DNA of 64,000 nt, taken from positions 62,001-126,000 of the forward strand of contig NZ_LT629735.1 in the NCBI RefSeq assembly GCF_900104925.1, read 5' to 3'. Positions 5,900 through 62,903 of this stretch are shown here, one piece after another. The position numbers were made by a program, and so were the translations under genes. The notes beneath the pieces were generated by a model. The model saw only the letters and a program-made list of their open reading frames with translations, was not told the DNA's origin and did not search any database. This DNA comes from Opitutus sp. GAS368 (GTDB taxonomy: Bacteria > Verrucomicrobiota > Verrucomicrobiia > Opitutales > Opitutaceae). The first letter of the stretch is position 1. Every line of letters begins with the position of its first letter.

Positions 5900-5907
5900 A
5901 ATGAATT

Positions 5908-5984
5908 TAACCCAGAGGACACGGAGGGCACCGAGGCAAGCCGTGAGATTTCAACCTCGGTGTCCTCGGCGAACTCTGTGTTTA
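5908..5984. repeat. Palindromic repeat (CAGAGGACACGGAGG family)
   Basis: Inverted arms cagaggacacggagggcacc and its approximate reverse complement around 5955-5984 fill the gap between sugE and opcA. The far end contains the TAA stop codon of opcA (5982-5984). A relative of this family lies at 20636-20724. Confidence 0.7.
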
Positions 5985-6938
5985 AAAAAACATCGCCTCG
6001 CTCAGCGCCGCCTCCTGCGCCAGGAAGTGCGCACCGGCCACGAGCGAGGTCCGGCCCGTGCCGAGATCGCCGGTGAACTCGGCGTGATCCTTGCTCAGGT
6101 CGGCCGCCCACTTGAAGACCTTCCTCGGCTCGGCGTAGGCGAAGGCCATCGAGAGGCAGCCGGGGCAGTCCACCGGCGTGACCGCGAAGGCCACCGGACC
6201 GGCGCCGGCGCGGGTCAGGCCCTTCTTGACCCAGCCGAGCAGGCAGCTGGCCTCGGCGGCAAACTGCGCGCGGTGGCGGATGGTGACCGTCTGCAACCCG
6301 GTCGTGATGAGCGCCGGGGCGTAGCGGCTGAGGAATTGCCCGAGGTTCTGCCGGAGCGGCAGCGTGCGGGTGTAGGCCAGGTCGCGCACCGCCGCGATGT
6401 TCGGCCAGGGGAAGGTGAACGCGTCCGCCGGCGCCACGGCGCTGTCGAAGAGGACGCGTTTCGAGCGGGTCAGCAGGTAGCCGTAGTCGGCCAGCCGCTT
6501 GGCCGCGGAAAAGCCATGGCCCCAGTAGTAGAGCGGCATGTCGGTCGAGAGGCACACCGAGACCTGGTTTTCCAGGTAGCCGCGCGCCGCCATGGTGTAG
6601 TGCAGGATGACGAACTCGACGCAGCGCGTGTCGTTCTTCGATTTGCCGAGGAAGCACTCGCCGTAGATCTTCGCCCGGATCTCGGTCGGCGCCTTCTCCC
6701 CGAAGTCCGGGCATAGCACCACGACCCGCGCCGGGTAGCGCTGGGCGAACTTCAGCGTGTTCTGGAACTGTTCCTGGGCGTCCGCCGGATTCGAGTTGGA
6801 CCCGAGGTGCAACACGAGGTTGAGCTGCACGGCGCGGCTCTCCTTGGCCGGCGAGTCGGCCCAGAGTTTCTTGAACCCGGCCGAGATGCCGCCGACGGGC
6901 ACCTCCTGTCCGGGCAGAGCGTCAAAGACGGCGGGCAT
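5982..6938 (-). CDS. opcA: OpcA-family glucose-6-phosphate dehydrogenase assembly protein
   Basis: A 318-residue cytoplasmic protein that in cyanobacteria and actinobacteria promotes oligomerisation or activation of glucose-6-phosphate dehydrogenase. The sequence shows the family's alpha/beta layout, with RYPARVVVLCPDF, an ECFLGKSKND segment and a late LTRAGAGPVAFAVTPVDCPG block. Position directly after zwf on the same strand (90-base gap filled by a palindrome) supports the call. The ATG at 6938 is used. Its stop codon falls inside the repeat at 5908-5984, so the original C-terminus may have been altered. Confidence 0.82.
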   Translation of the reverse strand: MPAVFDALPGQEVPVGGISAGFKKLWADSPAKESRAVQLNLVLHLGSNSNPADAQEQFQNTLKFAQRYPARVVVLCPDFGEKAPTEIRAKIYGECFLGKSKNDTRCVEFVILHYTMAARGYLENQVSVCLSTDMPLYYWGHGFSAAKRLADYGYLLTRSKRVLFDSAVAPADAFTFPWPNIAAVRDLAYTRTLPLRQNLGQFLSRYAPALITTGLQTVTIRHRAQFAAEASCLLGWVKKGLTRAGAGPVAFAVTPVDCPGCLSMAFAYAEPRKVFKWAADLSKDHAEFTGDLGTGRTSLVAGAHFLAQEAALSEAMFF

Positions 6939-26856: not shown

Positions 26857-27012
26857 AACCTGAAACCTGAGACCTGAGACCTGAAACCAATGCATCCGGA
26901 AACATTGCCGGATAGCCTGAGTCGAAAGTGGCGAACGCGGGTTGCCGGCGACGATATTGAAAGGAGCGAGGGCATCTAATTTTCAGGTCTCAGGTTTCAG
27001 GTCTCAGGTCTC
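26857..27012. repeat. Inverted-repeat element with ACCTGAGACCTGAAACC ends
   Basis: Left end 26857-26888 and right end 26981-27012 are inverted copies of the acctgaaacctgagacct unit, with about 92 bases between them that show no gene. It separates the ATPase and TOPRIM-like genes and carries no obvious terminator. Confidence 0.8.
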
Positions 27013-28054: not shown

Positions 28055-28170
28055 AACCACGAATGAACACGAATTAACACGAATTAACACGAATGAAATC
28101 AATGAACCCGATCCATCGGACAGCGGCATCCGTCTCCTCAATTCGTGTCTATTCGTGTCCATTCGTGGTT
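28055..28170. repeat. Palindromic repeat (ACCACGAATGAACACGAATT family)
   Basis: Left taaccacgaatgaacacgaa with tandem acacgaatta units; right ends cgtgtccattcgtggtt. It fills the gap between the aldo/keto reductase and the ATPase. Confidence 0.85.
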
Positions 28171-42891: not shown

Positions 42892-42901
42892 GGAAGAGGA
42901 A

Positions 42902-43011
42902 TTTACACGAAGGTCGCAAAGATCGCCAAGGCCCGAAATGAAAAGGCCCCGGAATGATCCGAGGCCGGTTGCACCACGGACGCCTTCGCGTCCTTTGCGA
43001 TCTTGGTGTAG
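42902..43011. repeat. MITE-like element, empty relative of the GxxExxY element
   Basis: Ends tttacacgaaggtcgcaaag (from 42902) and tttgcgatcttggtgta (to 43010) are inverted and match the ends of the element at 52765-53232. The interior has no gene. On the minus strand its centre contains a ggcctcgg/ccggggcc stem followed by TTTT, which resembles a terminator between rpsP and trmD. Confidence 0.85.
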
Positions 43012-43015
43012 ATAA

Positions 43016-45650: not shown

Positions 45651-46253
45651 CGCCACCGCGAGCACCACCGCGATCGCCGCTGTCATTGTATCGAGCGGCA
45701 GGCTGGGTTGCCCCGGCTTCGCTTGTTCCGGCAGGAACGGCACGTGGATGAACCCGCCGCGCACTTTCTTCCGGTCCTGCAGGGCGTGCATCAGGCCGTA
45801 GAAAACGTGGTTGCAGACGAAGGTGCCCGCCGTCTGCGACACCGTCGCCGGGATGCCGCGGCGGCGCAGCTCCTCCGTGATGGCCTTGATGGGCAGCGAG
45901 GACCAATACGCCGCCGGCCCGCCGCGCACGATGGGCCGGTCGACCGGCTGCCGCCCGGCGTTGTCGGCGATGCGCGCGTCGTCCACGTTGATCGCCACGC
46001 GCTCCGGCGTGATCTCGGCCCGCCCGCCCGCCTGCCCGGTGCAAATGACCAGCACCGGTTTCGTCGCGCGGATCTGCTTCTTCAACTCCGCGATCGCCGC
46101 ACCGAACACGCACGGCAGCAGCGCGCCGACTACGCGGTGCCCGGCGATGACCGTGCCGTGCAGCTGCCGGGCGATCTCGCCCGAGGGGTTGACCGACTCG
46201 CCGCCGAACGGCTCGAACCCGGTGAGGAGGACGGTTTTCGATTTCTTAGCCAC
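45603..46253 (-). CDS. pcp: Pyroglutamyl-peptidase I
   Basis: A 216-residue cysteine peptidase (C15) that removes N-terminal 5-oxoproline from peptides. The catalytic triad is visible: E80 in [20 protein letters not shown]147 in [11 protein letters not shown] and H170 in [12 protein letters not shown]. It follows DUF979 in the 5-oxoproline cluster and would feed it with pyroglutamate. The GTG start (46251-46253) lies in the end of a palindromic element that fills the whole upstream gap, so the native start and ribosome site may have been replaced. Confidence 0.94.
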
Positions 46254-46416
46254 GGATTACACGGATGGCTACGGATGGGAAAACAAGCAACTCCGGTCTG
46301 TCATCCTGAGCGCAGCGAAGGATCCAGCCTGATGCTCGAAGGCGGTCATCCTGATGGATTCTTCGCCCGGCTCAGAATGACAATCATAGGCCAATCCATC
46401 CGTGTAATCCGTGGCG
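46248..46416. repeat. Nested element: CACGGATTACACGGAT palindrome with a GTCATCCTGAG element inside
   Basis: Outer arms agccacggattacacggatg (from 46248) and catccgtgtaatccgtggcg (to 46415). Inside, 46300-46381 is a copy of the GTCATCCTGAG element also found at 23137-23222. The block covers the gap between DUF979 and pcp and includes the pcp start codon. Confidence 0.85.
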
Positions 46417-51605: not shown

Positions 51606-52763
51606 ATGAGCCCCGTCGTCAGGCAATTCCGCGACTTCTTCGTCTCGCTCAAGCTGACGGTCGTGCTGCTCGCGCTGTCGATCGTGCTGATCTTCTGGGC
51701 GACGCTCGCGCAGGTGCAGCTCGGCATCTGGGGCGTGCAGGAGAAATTCTTCCACGCCTTCTTCGTGCTGGAGAAGATCCCCGGCACCGGCATCCCCGTG
51801 CCGGTCTTCCCCGGCGGCTATTTCCTCGGCGGCCTGCTGCTCATCAACCTCGTCGCCGCGCATATCTACCGCTTCCGGCTCGAATGGAAAAAGGCCGGCA
51901 TCCAGCTCACGCACCTCGGGCTCATCCTCCTCTTGCTCGGCGAGCTGTTCACCAGCCTCCTGCAGGTCGAGAGCAACATGCGCCTCGATGAGGGTGAGAC
52001 CAGGCATTACTCCGAAAGCTACCGGACCAACGAGCTCGCCATCCTTGACACGACCAGCCCGGACTACAACGAGGTCGTCGCCATCCCCGAGGCCGTGCTC
52101 TCCGACGGCGGCGCCATCCAGCACCCGAAGCTGCCGTTCCAGGTCCGCATCCGCGACTACTACCCCAACGCCGCCCTGCAGATGCGCGACCAGGTGCCCA
52201 ATGCCGCGCCGGCCCTCGCCACCGCCGGCATCGGCCCGCGCATCGCCGTCATTCCGCTGCCGTTGACCTACAAGCAGGACGAGCGCAACGCGCCCGCGGC
52301 CAACATCGAGTTCGTCGGCCCCGAGGGCACGCTCGGCACCTGGCTCGTGTCGCCGTTGCTCGGCATGCCGCAGAAGTTCGACTACGCCGGCCGCACCTGG
52401 GAGTTCTCCCTCCGCTTCAAGCGCTACTACCACCCGTTCGCCGTCACGCTGCTCAAGTTCACCCACGAGGTCTACGCCGGCACCGAGATCCCGAAGAATT
52501 TCTCCAGCCGCATCCGCCTCCAGACCGACGACGCCCGCCAGGACCGCGAGGTGCTCATCTACATGAACAACCCGCTGCGGCACGCCGGCCTGACCTTCTA
52601 CCAGGCGGGTTTCGACAATGACGACAAGACCACGATCCTCCAGGTCGTGCGCAACCCGAGCTGGGTGCTGCCCTACGTCTCCTGCATCATGATGGGCCTC
52701 GGCCTGCTCATCCAGTTCGGTTTCCACCTCACCGGCTTCATGCGCAAGCGGAGCCAGAGCTGA
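51606..52763 (+). CDS. resB: Cytochrome c biogenesis protein ResB (Ccs1-like)
   Basis: The 385-residue inner membrane protein has hydrophobic helices at about 12-38, 65-82, 95-120 and 350-375, with a large external domain between the third and fourth. The start MSPVVRQFRDFFVSLKLTVVLLAL and the late YMNNPLRHAGLTFYQAGFDNDD are family landmarks. ResB with CcsA forms the system II haem transport and attachment complex. The operon is interrupted after it by the element at 52765-53232. Confidence 0.93.
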   Translation: MSPVVRQFRDFFVSLKLTVVLLALSIVLIFWATLAQVQLGIWGVQEKFFHAFFVLEKIPGTGIPVPVFPGGYFLGGLLLINLVAAHIYRFRLEWKKAGIQLTHLGLILLLLGELFTSLLQVESNMRLDEGETRHYSESYRTNELAILDTTSPDYNEVVAIPEAVLSDGGAIQHPKLPFQVRIRDYYPNAALQMRDQVPNAAPALATAGIGPRIAVIPLPLTYKQDERNAPAANIEFVGPEGTLGTWLVSPLLGMPQKFDYAGRTWEFSLRFKRYYHPFAVTLLKFTHEVYAGTEIPKNFSSRIRLQTDDARQDREVLIYMNNPLRHAGLTFYQAGFDNDDKTTILQVVRNPSWVLPYVSCIMMGLGLLIQFGFHLTGFMRKRSQS

Positions 52764-52764
52764 G

Positions 52765-53232
52765 TTTACACCAAGATCGCAAAGATCGCTGAGCAATGCA
52801 TCCGAACTACTCCAAGGCCAATACCCTTTCCGCCAAGGTCATTGGTGCGGCTATTGAGGTGCATCGGCACAAAGGGCCGGGTTTGATCGAAAGCATCTAT
52901 GAACGATGTCTCGTCCATGAACTCCAGTTGCAAAAAATCGCCTCGGTCAGCCAGCTCCTGGTGCCCATCGAATACAAGGGATTGGTTTTCGAGGAGCCGC
53001 TTCGCTTGGACGTCTATGTTGAGGGCTGCCTGATTGTGGAAAACAAGGTCGTCGAGAAAATCCTGCCCATCCACAAAGCACAGCTCTTGTCCTACATGAA
53101 GCTGCTGGATGCGCCACTCGGCCTTCTGATCAATTACCATGAACCTCTGCTGAAAGATGGCGTCGTGCGCTTGATCCTTCCCGGTGCCGATCAACCCTGA
53201 ACCCTTTGCTGTCTTTGCGTCCTTGGTGTAAA
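52765..53232. mobile_element. Palindrome-ended element carrying a GxxExxY gene
   Basis: Left end ttacaccaagatcgcaaaga (from 52766) and right end tttgcgtccttggtgtaaa (to 53232) are inverted and lie directly at the two ends of the GxxExxY gene. An empty element with nearly the same ends is at 42902-43011. It sits between resB and ccsA, leaving one base after the resB stop and two bases before the ccsA start codon. No target duplication is obvious. Confidence 0.7.
52796..53200 (+). CDS. GxxExxY family protein (PD-(D/E)XK nuclease-like)
   Basis: A 134-residue protein with the diagnostic G29-x-x-E32-x-x-Y35 in GPGLIESIYERCL, and the nuclease-like D72 with VENK (E82, K84) in RLDVYVEGCLIVENKVVEKI. 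The late GLLINYHEPLLKDGV is also typical. This family (PF13366) has no established function. The base composition is clearly lower in GC than its neighbours, consistent with transfer. It lies inside a palindrome-ended element in the cytochrome operon. Confidence 0.9.
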   Translation: MHPNYSKANTLSAKVIGAAIEVHRHKGPGLIESIYERCLVHELQLQKIASVSQLLVPIEYKGLVFEEPLRLDVYVEGCLIVENKVVEKILPIHKAQLLSYMKLLDAPLGLLINYHEPLLKDGVVRLILPGADQP

Positions 53233-53234
53233 TA

Positions 53235-55157
53235 ATGAAACGTTTCCTTCCAGTCTTGGTGCTCGTCCTGACCGCCGGCTGGCTGGCGTCCACGCTGCGC
53301 CCGCCGCAAAACACCGGTGAGTTCGACCTCGTCGCCTTCGGCCGCCTGCCCGTGCTGGTCAACGGCCGCCTCAAGCCGCTCGACACCGTCGCCCGCACCT
53401 CACTGCTCATGCTGCAGGGCCGCCAGCGCGTCAGCGACCCGACCAAGCCCGTGCCGCTCGTCGCCACGCCCATCGAATGGCTGGCCGATGTGCTCTTCAA
53501 CCCGGCCAAGGCGGACGCCTACCCGACCTTCCGCCTCAGCGCCACCGACTCACCCGAGCTGCTCACGCTGATGGGGCTGACCGACGCGGAAACCAAGATC
53601 ACCTATACCGACCCGGTGATGCGCACGCTTGCCGTCGCCGATTTCGTGCCGGGCACCCGCACCCGCTTCTCGTTCAACCAGCTCCAGCCCAAGCTGCCCG
53701 AGCTCGAACGGCAGGCGCAGCTCGCCGAGCCGGTCGATCCGCAGGCGCGCACCCAGTTTCAGAAGGCTGTCGTCCAGTTGCGCGACCGTGTCATCCTCTA
53801 CCAGCGCCTCAAGCACAGCGTGCAGCTGCCCGACTCGCCCGCGTTCCTGACCGAGATCGTCCAGTTCCAGCAAAGCCTGCCGGCGGGCATCGCCGCCGTC
53901 CGCGCCAAAGAGAAGGGCGAGGCGTACGACGAGGCCGCCTTCAAGGCCATGCTCGCCGCCGCCCAGCGTTTCGACGACATGGGCAAGTTCGGTTACCTGC
54001 TGACCGTGCCGCCCGACGCGGGCGAGAAGAACCTCACCGCGTGGAAGACCGCCGGCACCGCCCTGCTCGAGACCTTCGAGACCGGCACCATCAACCCCAA
54101 CGTCATGGCCTACGCCGCCCTCGGCGCCGCCTGGCGCAACCACGAAGCCGGCCAGTTCAACGAGATCGTCCGCCTCTTTCGCGAGCAACTCGGCAAGCGC
54201 TTCGACGCGCAGCTGCTGAAGAGCGACGTCGAGGTGCGCTTCAACGCCGCCGAGCCCTTCTACAAGGGCATCATCCTCTATGCCCTCGCCTTCCTGTGCG
54301 CCATCATCTCGTGGCTCATCTGGCCCGACGTGCTGGGCAAATCGGCGTTTTACCTGGTGGGCCTGGCTTGGCTCCTCGCCACCGCCGGCATCATCACGCG
54401 CATGTGGCTCGAGGGCCGCCCGCCGGTGACCAACCTCTACTCCTCGGCGCTCTTTGTCGGCTGGGGCGCCGTCGCCCTGTGCCTGCTGCTCGAGCGAATC
54501 TACCGGAACGGCATCGGTTCCGCCGCGGCCGGCATGGTCGGCTTCATCACACTCATCATCGCCCACATGCTGTCGCTCAGCGGCGACACGCTCGAGATGA
54601 TGCGCGCGGTGCTCGACACCAACCTCTGGCTCGCCACGCACGTCGTCGTCGTGACCACCGGCTACGCCTCGACCTTCCTCGCCGGGTTTCTCGCCCTCAT
54701 CTACGTTTTCCGCGGCGTGTTCACCAAGTCGCTCGACAAGGCCACGGCCGAGGCGCTGACGCGCATGGTCTACGGCATCGTGTGCTTCGCCACGCTCTGC
54801 AGCCTCGTCGGCACCGTCCTCGGCGGCATCTGGGCCGACCAGTCGTGGGGCCGCTTCTGGGGCTGGGATCCGAAGGAGAACGGCGCGGTCATGATCGTCC
54901 TCTGGAACGCCATCGTCCTCCACGCCCGCTGGGGCGGCCTCGTCAAGCAGCGCGGCCTGATGTGCCTCGCGATCGCCGGCAACATCATCACGAGCTGGAG
55001 CTGGTTCGGCACCAACATGCTCGGCGTCGGCCTCCACAGCTACGGTTTCATGGACGCCGCCTTCTGGTGGCTCATCATCTTTGTCGCCAGCCAGCTCGCA
55101 CTCATCGCCCTCGCCCAGCTCCCGCTGGCCAGGTGGCGCAGCTTTCGAACGGCCTGA
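53235..55157 (+). CDS. ccsA: Cytochrome c biogenesis protein CcsA/CcsB with extended N-terminal region
   Basis: A 640-residue membrane protein. A signal-anchor (MKRFLPVLVLVLTAGWLAS) leads into an about 330-residue external domain, then eight helices with the haem-binding tryptophan-rich motif WGRFWGWDPKENGAVM (about 535) and flanking histidines. It exports and attaches haem together with ResB. The ATG lies two bases after the end of the inserted element, so its ribosome site is provided by repeat sequence. Confidence 0.93.
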   Translation: MKRFLPVLVLVLTAGWLASTLRPPQNTGEFDLVAFGRLPVLVNGRLKPLDTVARTSLLMLQGRQRVSDPTKPVPLVATPIEWLADVLFNPAKADAYPTFRLSATDSPELLTLMGLTDAETKITYTDPVMRTLAVADFVPGTRTRFSFNQLQPKLPELERQAQLAEPVDPQARTQFQKAVVQLRDRVILYQRLKHSVQLPDSPAFLTEIVQFQQSLPAGIAAVRAKEKGEAYDEAAFKAMLAAAQRFDDMGKFGYLLTVPPDAGEKNLTAWKTAGTALLETFETGTINPNVMAYAALGAAWRNHEAGQFNEIVRLFREQLGKRFDAQLLKSDVEVRFNAAEPFYKGIILYALAFLCAIISWLIWPDVLGKSAFYLVGLAWLLATAGIITRMWLEGRPPVTNLYSSALFVGWGAVALCLLLERIYRNGIGSAAAGMVGFITLIIAHMLSLSGDTLEMMRAVLDTNLWLATHVVVVTTGYASTFLAGFLALIYVFRGVFTKSLDKATAEALTRMVYGIVCFATLCSLVGTVLGGIWADQSWGRFWGWDPKENGAVMIVLWNAIVLHARWGGLVKQRGLMCLAIAGNIITSWSWFGTNMLGVGLHSYGFMDAAFWWLIIFVASQLALIALAQLPLARWRSFRTA

Positions 55158-60630: not shown

Positions 60631-60945
60631 TCCTCCGCTCGTGAGGAGCACCGCGAAGGATGTCCTCCGAAGCCTCGGTGTAGGAGGACATTAATGCGGT
60701 TTCGGCCAAGGCTTCAGACGGCAGGCCATCCGCGCCAGCCCTTCACCCGAAGGGCTTTTTGTTGCCCGGCGTCAGGAGGTTTCGCGCCATTTTCCCCGCC
60801 GGGCGGCGTCGGATCGCTCCGCCCCGGTATGCCCCACCCACAATCAACCGGATTTTTGGCCACAAAAAACGCAAAATTGGTCCATCCTGCCTGCACAAAT
60901 CTCCTGGGCACCCATAGGTGCCTTGTGAATCTATTCCGCTGTCCG

Positions 60946-61052
60946 GTAGTGGGTCAGTTTGATGTAGGTCGGGGTTTATGCCGACATTCCACGCGCCCGG
61001 TCGGGGATAAACCCCGACCTACCACACCGCAGAAACCAAACTGACCCACTAC
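60946..61052. mobile_element. Inserted palindromic element with a 10-base target duplication
   Basis: The ends gtagtgggtcagttt and aaactgacccactac are exact 15-base inverted repeats. The sequence ccgctgtccg occurs directly before (60936-60945) and directly after (61053-61062), the mark of a transposition event into the outer element. No transposase is encoded. Confidence 0.88.
60964..61022. repeat. Innermost palindrome (GTAGGTCGGGGTTTAT family)
   Basis: Arms gtaggtcggggtttatgccg (60964) and the near-complement ataaaccccgacctac (to 61022) surround about 14 bases. A half relative is at 50581-50604. Confidence 0.85.
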
Positions 61053-61200
61053 CCGCTGTCCGTTTTTGCGTTTTTTGTGCTTTTTGTGGCCATCCGTTCC
61101 GTCTGGCTTGTCACCATTCCCTCGACCGGCTTCGCTTAATCACCCCATTTGAGCCTTTGCGCTGGACGGCCCTCATGCCGGCCCTCAAAACCTTGGGCTC

Positions 61201-62772: not shown

Positions 62773-62903
62773 ACCACGGATTACACGGATAGAGTCCAAG
62801 GCAGGGTTAACCACTAATGAACACTAAGACCTCACTAATTAGTGGCCCATTAGTGTGGATTAGTGGTGACCAACCATCCGTGTTAATCAGTGAAATCCGT
62901 GGT
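62773..62903. repeat. Nested element: CACGGATTACACGGAT palindrome with a CCACTAATGAACACTAA palindrome inside
   Basis: Outer arms accacggattacacggat (from 62773) and gaaatccgtggt (to 62903). Inner arms ccactaatgaacactaa (62811-62827) and ttagtgtggattagtgg (62850-62866) are inverted. It fills the gap between pyrB and pyrC. Confidence 0.85.

Follow-up and report, generated by a model that had tools for sequence, protein, structure and literature searches.

The closest described counterparts of the elements reported here are the REP/REPIN repeats with their RAYT genes, and TIRtrons (PMC3733652; PMC3116915). PMC3733652 reports pairs of GTAG-tagged REP repeats and RAYT, and also RAYT genes that carry long terminal inverted repeats. 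Such systems resemble ours in that a single enzyme gene is flanked by inverted repeats, short copies without the gene are numerous between genes, and a genome has several types, each paired with an enzyme of its own. They differ in that RAYT is a Y1/HUH transposase, whereas the GxxExxY enzyme is a predicted PD-(D/E)XK nuclease, and in that the ends of GxxExxY elements are iteron arrays that lack the GTAG tag. The intervening sequences (IVS) of 23S rRNA are similarly built. In PMC4990558, the Coxiella IVS, a relative of S23 elements described below, combines an S23 gene with a 28-bp terminal stem; 23S rRNA IVS share with GxxExxY elements a length of about 430 nt and a single small gene between terminal inverted repeats. 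GxxExxY elements, by contrast, lie between protein genes, encode another protein family and bear no sign of selection on an RNA stem.

MITEs and their parent IS offer a further comparison, as GxxExxY elements also include short gene-less inverted-repeat elements whose ends are shared with a gene-bearing copy. Unlike MITE/IS pairs, GxxExxY elements encode neither a DDE nor another known transposase, and no target-site duplication was found. Nucleases of the PD-(D/E)XK fold make cuts in several mobile elements, namely TnsA of Tn7, the EDxHD homing endonucleases and R2 retrotransposons. These have a partner (a DDE transposase, an intron and a reverse transcriptase, respectively), whereas the GxxExxY element encodes none, and to our knowledge no nuclease of this fold class is the sole enzyme of a transposon. 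In the open-licence full-text literature we found no description of a role for PF13366/TIGR04256 and no paper that links GxxExxY genes to repeat-ended elements, although an account elsewhere is possible. Here we suggest, from sequence comparison, that the GxxExxY nuclease probably drives a family of very small mobile elements that has so far escaped notice.

Results

A GxxExxY gene between inverted iteron arms

The window, by which we mean the whole 64,000-nucleotide stretch of Opitutus sp. GAS368 DNA analysed here, has the following features around its GxxExxY gene.

51606..52763, plus strand: ResB family gene, upstream flank (ORF and profile match)
52765..53232, plus strand: GxxExxY element with CGCAAAG-type iterons, 468 nt (inverted-repeat scan)
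52765..52793, plus strand: left arm; three iterons of about 9 nt, CACCAAG, CGCAAAG and CGCTGAG, read by eye; inverted repeat in the scan
52796..53200, plus strand: GxxExxY gene, 134 aa; predicted PD-(D/E)XK nuclease with E32, D72, E82xK84 and Q96xxxY100
53204..53232, minus strand: right arm, inverted; minus-strand CACCAAG, CGCAAAG and AGCAAAG, read by eye; inverted repeat in the scan
53235..55157, plus strand: cytochrome c assembly gene (CcsA/CcsB type), downstream flank; score below the CcsB cut-off

The inverted-repeat scan gave the arms of the 468-nt element as TTTACACCAAGATCGCAAAGA and, for the other arm as its reverse complement, TTTACACCAAGGACGCAAAGA. Both arms open with TTTACACCAAG, continue with two further units of about 9 bases, and face each other. 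The element starts 1 nt past the end of the ResB-family gene and ends 2 nt short of the start of the cytochrome c assembly gene; its sole ORF between the arms is the 134-aa GxxExxY. The first-pass annotation had proposed that this gene lies within an inverted-repeat element, and both the arms and the ORF bear this out.

A profile search of the host genome (4.15 Mb in one contig) found 11 PF13366 genes. Nearly all have arms of their own, in many different sequences; the types read from the flanks include CACGAAT, CACGGAT, CACTAAT, CGCGGAT, CACAGAG, AACGGAG and others. We therefore rejected a single end family for all copies, since arms differ among copies within one genome.

Inverted arms accompany GxxExxY genes in the genus, the phylum and beyond

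Arms were scored as the best local match between the 160 nt upstream of a gene and the inverted 260 nt downstream, with a threshold of 14. The genus yielded 115 PF13366 matches; 99 loci gave 103 hits, and removal of 8 partial or edge rows, which included all of genome G006, left 95 scored genes. Arms reached the threshold at 85 of these 95 genes (19 genomes); 457 of 8930 mispaired flanks did so as well, but none of the 222 other ORFs in these loci and none of 285 shuffled pairs. For 74 of the genus copies, the true partner flank ranked among the top three of 95. Arms are still visible by eye at low scorers such as L002 and L011. The first-pass annotation had counted it against its own reading if the ends were missing beside most other GxxExxY genes; inverted ends are present beside most of them, with a sequence that varies by copy.

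Across the phylum, arms were found at 25 of 29 GxxExxY copies, and PF13366 itself was present in 173 of 288 sampled genomes. A set of named GTDB genomes from about a dozen phyla comprised 80 loci, from which 76 rows remained (five loci without a scored row, one contig-edge row removed, two loci with two rows each); arms were found at 63 of these copies, the other 13 falling below the threshold. The passing copies include ones from genomes that we take to be Planctomycetota, Verrucomicrobiota, Chloroflexota, Bacteroidota, Pseudomonadota, Desulfobacterota and Acidobacteriota and, equally by presumed assignment, Cyanobacteria, Hydrogenedentota, Nitrospinota, Cloacimonadota and Sumerlaeota, plus one presumed archaeal bin; many named genomes are metagenome bins, so that individual labels may be wrong. 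Among passing elements, 78 of 86 in the genus, 17 of 25 in the phylum and 48 of 63 in the named set have neither arm farther than 80 nt from the coding hit. The remaining 31, out of 174 in all, have a more distant arm, and some of these arms may be those of an adjoining element. No GxxExxY match was present among 50,697 phage records, plasmids had few (8 of 72,556), and three GxxExxY members had no match in PHROG.

The GxxExxY protein resembles Cas4/RecB-type nucleases

The window protein scored 128.3 bits against TIGR04256 (cut-off 35) and 120 bits against PF13366 (cut-off 22); Pfam and NCBIfam scans returned these families alone and no Y1/HUH transposase. In an alignment of 77 sequences, all 45% or more identical to the window protein, no substitution occurs at E32, D72, E82 or K84, while Q96 and Y100 are conserved in 90% or more. 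A wider genus set of 41 sequences likewise has no variation at E32, D72 and K84 and hardly any at Y100, but E82, which is Asp in some, and Q96 are less strictly kept. The RecB/Cas4-type PD-(D/E)XK signature consists of a helix E, a D, a (D/E)xK and a QxxxY.

A structure model computed from the window protein and 76 relatives had a mean pLDDT of 95.3. Its top match among solved folds was 4ic1 (SSO0001), which we take to be a Cas4, with a Foldseek E of 7e-4, a Z of 9.3 and an rmsd of 4.5 over 102 aligned residues; other restriction-endonuclease-like folds followed in the match list. Rows with Z below 8 were not counted as relation. Weak Foldseek hits of the model included 3r3p and 9nl3, which we connect with the mobile-element enzymes of this fold named above. 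Searching the sequences of solved structures gave no hit. By its modelled fold and its E, D, ExK and QxxxY residues, the GxxExxY protein is predicted to resemble a Cas4/RecB-type PD-(D/E)XK nuclease.

Cas4 proper has four cysteines for an iron–sulphur cluster and CRISPR neighbours. The invariant and near-invariant columns of the 77-sequence alignment contain no cysteine, and the window copy is flanked by resB- and ccsA-type genes; we therefore rejected Cas4 proper. From Cas4/RecB nucleases in general, the GxxExxY protein differs in being a stand-alone protein of 134 aa without a conserved cysteine set, accompanied by iteron arms and not by CRISPR or helicase genes. PADLOC reported a weak Cas4 profile match in 15 of the 77 members and no profile match for the window protein; one GxxExxY member scored on a defence-associated nuclease profile. 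The median dN/dS was 0.061 (48 pairs, with shared members), and this purifying selection suggests that the protein is retained for its activity.

Arms are iteron arrays that follow the protein clade

The 174 passing elements have a median length of about 460 nt. At least three iterons were present in both arms of 153 of 174 true pairs, as opposed to 215 of 522 mispaired arms and 4 of 174 shuffled pairs; iteron spacing was mostly 8 to 10 in a scan window of 8 to 12 only. The loose motif [ACG]RCN[AGT]A[AGT] occurs four or more times in the arms of 154 of the 174 elements. Cross-arm identity of iterons was 0.84 within an element and 0.68 for mispaired arms subjected to the same picking. Random iterons from different elements, compared without picking, were 0.40 identical, a figure that exaggerates the contrast, as within-element iterons were picked for likeness and 0.68 is the fairer control. 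The difference between 0.84 and 0.68 suggests that the iterons of one element tend to change jointly.

Arm similarity was also correlated with protein identity (Mantel r 0.42, reached in 0 of 2000 permutations). Its median was 0.22 to 0.26 for proteins below 40% identity, 0.60 at 70–80% and 0.84 at 80–90%, a climb which indicates that gene and arms travel as a unit. An exploratory table paired Glu at residue 13 with G at iteron position 5 (32 of 32), Gly at residue 122 with G at position 7 (76 of 77) and Trp at residue 122 with T at position 7 (18 of 20); many columns were tested and clades were controlled in part only, so that these pairings serve as leads.

Gene-less elements with the same kinds of arms

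The window also contains elements of the same build without a gene. Strand is undefined for the following entries.

5906..5985: gene-less element, CACGGAG/CACCGAG iterons (scan)
26858..27009: gene-less element of another class, with 7-nt iterons (ACCTGAN) (scan)
28055..28170: CACGAAT iterons, no gene; among own copies it matches GxxExxY element L010 best
42901..43013: gene-less element, CGCAAAG type, between rpsP and trmD, 113 nt; terminator-like hairpin in the loop, by eye
46249..46415: CACGGAT iterons, no gene; among own copies it matches L011 best; TCATCCTGAG-type repeat inside
60861..61079: gene-less element, CACAAAA type; GTAG-type GTAGGTCGGGG REP inside
62773..62903: gene-less CACGGAT element that encloses a CACTAAT element (scan and nesting analysis)
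62810..62867: CACTAAT element nested in 62773..62903; best own match, L005

The ends of the element at 52765-53232 had been likened in the first-pass annotation to those of the gene-less element next to trmD, and the likeness stands: the scan delimits the latter at 42901-43013, between the ribosomal S16 gene upstream and trmD downstream, and its arms score 0.62 per arm base against those of the gene-bearing copy. The accompanying proposal of an autonomous element with its MITE needs amendment. Gene and ends do form one unit, and gene-less copies with like ends exist, but there are many end families and not one.

In 464 kb of the host genome we counted 39 inverted-repeat pairs with iterons, against 3 in a first-order shuffle (a slightly looser count), and a stricter scan gave 23 elements against 0 in shuffled sequence; the element at 52765-53232 is itself absent from the stricter list. 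The density, context, relic and own-match tests leave out elements whose arm G+C exceeds 0.68 or that contain a GTAGGG motif. After filtering, 30 iteron elements of the genome remained, 28 of them without any trace of the gene and two with the whole gene. This sets them apart from MITEs and their parent insertion sequences, and we rejected the view that the gene-less copies are internally deleted gene-bearing ones, a protein relic being absent in 28 and the other two whole. Several gene-less elements sit in short stop-to-start gaps, others in wider ones.

The density of the 10-nt class was compared in one sample from each of four genomes, with 0 elements in shuffles. The own genome (G000), with 11 GxxExxY genes, had 16 in 464 kb, of which five are in the window picked for this finding, leaving 11 in 400 kb without it. 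G001, with one gene, had 1 in 320 kb; G002, also with one gene, had 2 rows in 400 kb; and G159, from the same family and with no GxxExxY gene, had 1 row in 328 kb. In G001, the iterons of the sole element are CACGGAA, and the single GxxExxY gene of that genome (L026) has arms of this type as well. By eye, the two rows of G002 and the one of G159 are unlike the arms of GxxExxY elements. G002 also has two gene-less CACAGAG elements, which were automatically classed as 7-nt and do not match the CGCAAAG type of its nuclease arms. When 18 gene-less elements of the own genome were compared with its own nuclease arms, the mean score was 0.64, against 0.55 for equally large random sets from other genomes, 125 of 5000 of which were as good; in a variant with 7-nt types, from which two score-filtered own copies were missing, 365 of 5000 were as good. 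Own gene-less elements thus show a modest preference for own nuclease arms.

Elements are nested, and are present, absent or exchanged at shared junctions

Besides the CACTAAT element within the CACGGAT element at 62773-62903, three levels of nesting occur at L265:14329-14599, with CACTAAT arms outermost, CACGGAT within and, by eye, CACAGGAG-type arms innermost.

We then compared gene junctions across relatives. At three of them (resB-ccsA, gatA-gatB and rpsP-trmD), chosen for G000 having an element there, types were read by eye. The resB-ccsA junction in 17 genomes, our own included, holds three different nuclease elements, one gene-less 7-nt element and a relic, and elsewhere direct gene overlap or short spacers. 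Adjacent resB and ccsA genes without an element, which the first-pass annotation had pointed to as worth seeking, do therefore exist in relatives; its converse worry, ends conserved there without the gene, applies to none of the 16 relatives read, though in G006 the gene is split across two frames (L036), with arms still recognisable. The ccsA genes of G011 and G000 are 93% identical, yet the two genomes carry different elements, with nucleases only 49% identical. At gatA-gatB (19 genomes, with positions not reliable for G003 and G020), G000 and G007 have a nuclease element, other genomes gene-less elements of several types, and the rest none.

At rpsP-trmD, five arm types occur in six of 19 genomes, and the rest mostly have plain terminator-like sequence. 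G009 has a CGCGAAG-like gene-less element there, with no matching arm among its scored copies. The gene-less elements of this junction (42901-43013, L287-L305) contain a hairpin, CCTCGG..CCGGGG, with a T run, between arms of different types. As the hairpin recurs inside differing arms, and a similar one in G008 has no clear arms, the arms may frame or capture a host terminator.

Between pyrB and pyrC, G018 and G004 carry an element, while G020, whose upstream flank shares 95% identity with the one in G018, has a 22-nt gap. The gap (L391) contains GGCCAC, resembling the outer arm end in G018; this may be a footprint of excision or a coincidence. Beside a 94% identical flank at a sugar-transporter junction, the element in G020 differs from the one in G005 and G018, and the nucleases are 30% identical. 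Elements are thus repeatedly gained, lost or swapped at the same junctions, and the empty sites could be deletions.

Such swapping of unrelated elements at one junction between near relatives is what would be expected if the nuclease were a homing or competition enzyme, cutting junctions or rival elements so that repair from transferred DNA replaces them, the arms marking and protecting self. The several types at each of the three junctions read and the lack of a target duplication fit this account too. Nevertheless we consider it quite improbable, as gene-less copies at many unrelated sites, and nesting, require movement to new sites, beyond homing alone.

Insertion context and the form of the arms

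Orientation was scored for 59 of the 86 genus elements, those with both neighbours called within 400 nt by simple codon-score gene calls. In 52 of the 59, the element lies between two genes co-oriented with the nuclease gene, and the upstream gene is co-oriented in 58. In the median, the element begins 8 nt past the stop of the upstream gene, and its end lies 6 nt short of the start of the downstream gene. The sense orientation may come from selection for expression, not from the insertion route. Target-site duplications in the 174 elements were not clearly above those in mispaired flanks, in a test where element ends were set by arm similarity alone, which could hide a short duplication.

A location in operons, mostly in the sense orientation, would also suit arms that act in RNA, with the element as an operon spacer whose transcript stem is processed like 23S rRNA intervening sequences. 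The terminator-like hairpin seen by eye in the rpsP-trmD elements agrees with this, as does the Coxiella IVS with its 28-bp terminal stem and S23 gene (PMC4990558). Arm mismatches, however, comprise 141 wobble-type and 195 non-wobble transitions, a bias opposite to a G-U excess, which favours DNA over RNA as the recognised form; moreover, the encoded protein is predicted to be of a DNA-nuclease type. An RNA role of the arms is, in our view, very improbable.

Other gene-plus-ends systems in the genus

The S23/IVP (PF05635) genes of the genus (L012-L016, L362-L389) also lie inside inverted arms, here of 7-nt iterons (TAGCGAG, AGTTGAG, GACGGAG and others). Of 33 loci, five at contig edges were removed and L017, below the family cut-off, was left out; 17 of the 28 scored loci reach the same arm threshold, and several more have arms by eye.

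The own genome has nine Y1 transposase-like matches. The best flank matches of these loci were GTAGGG-type repeats at four of the nine (L128, L132, L133 and L135) and bracketing iteron arms at none. Two copies, L128 and L129, have the same predicted protein, and AACGGAG-type and CACGGAT-type iteron-like sequences lie beside one of them. With GxxExxY, S23/IVP and RAYT each having their own ends, the genus seems to host three parallel gene-plus-ends systems. The analogy with RAYT/REP pairs drawn in the first-pass annotation accordingly holds for the logic of the system and fails for the enzyme class and the end sequences.

The presence of nine Y1 matches raises the question of whether the RAYT tyrosine transposases of the genome could themselves move the iteron elements as REPs, the more so as long terminal inverted repeats around RAYT genes have been reported (PMC3733652). 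We consider this extremely improbable, given that none of the nine loci is iteron-bracketed in its best flank match, that four have GTAGGG-type repeats instead, and that arm type tracks the GxxExxY clade.

The S23/IVP elements bear on a different question, namely whether the nuclease is mere cargo on arms that are moved by an unknown trans factor, its role being, for instance, to retain the element or to act against invading DNA. A different gene in similarly built elements, the lack of the GxxExxY gene in 28 of 30 iteron elements, and the members that score on Cas4 or, in one case, defence-associated nuclease profiles would all suit a cargo role. Against this, arm type tracks the nuclease clade, the one of four sampled genomes that is richest in nuclease copies also has the highest element density, and the RAYT genes of the own genome have other ends. 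The lack of matches in 50,697 phage records and their scarcity on plasmids (8 of 72,556) also argue against it, and we regard a cargo role as unlikely.

Discussion

A gene that is mostly bracketed by repeats, gene-less copies, and presence or absence of the element between genes together suggest that the nuclease is probably the mover. We lean towards the view that GxxExxY elements are a small mobile-element family whose nuclease binds the iterons and moves both its own element and, in trans, gene-less copies. Each gene-bearing copy encodes the GxxExxY protein alone, a predicted nuclease, between two inverted arms of about three iterons spaced some nine bases apart. Several nuclease molecules would bind the iterons of both arms, and the nuclease would cut at or near the element ends. 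The freed or copied element might then enter stop-to-start gaps of operons via repair, with no target-site duplication, while gene-less elements with matching iterons would be mobilised in trans. Protein and iterons diverge jointly, which would lead to many types per genome.

A bolder version of this model can be put forward tentatively, as quite possible if short of probable. The element would be self-sufficient and of a new chemical class, consisting of iteron ends and one Cas4/RecB-like nuclease, with no need of a DDE, HUH, tyrosine or serine recombinase. Its nuclease and iterons would diversify jointly under a readable recognition code, of which the exploratory pairings of residues 13 and 122 with iteron bases would be examples. 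Together with the S23-based sister system of 7-nt iterons, the family would have given rise to many of the palindromes found between genes in bacteria of different phyla.

The link to repeat-ended elements gives PF13366/TIGR04256, a common family, a testable job, and it would explain a large set of intergenic palindromes. The iteron types linked to nuclease clades are a natural series of protein–DNA recognition pairs. Movement by a nuclease would add a chemistry to the few known ways of moving DNA and, if it is true that the nuclease alone drives movement, GxxExxY elements would represent a class of mobile element with a chemistry of its own, new to such elements.
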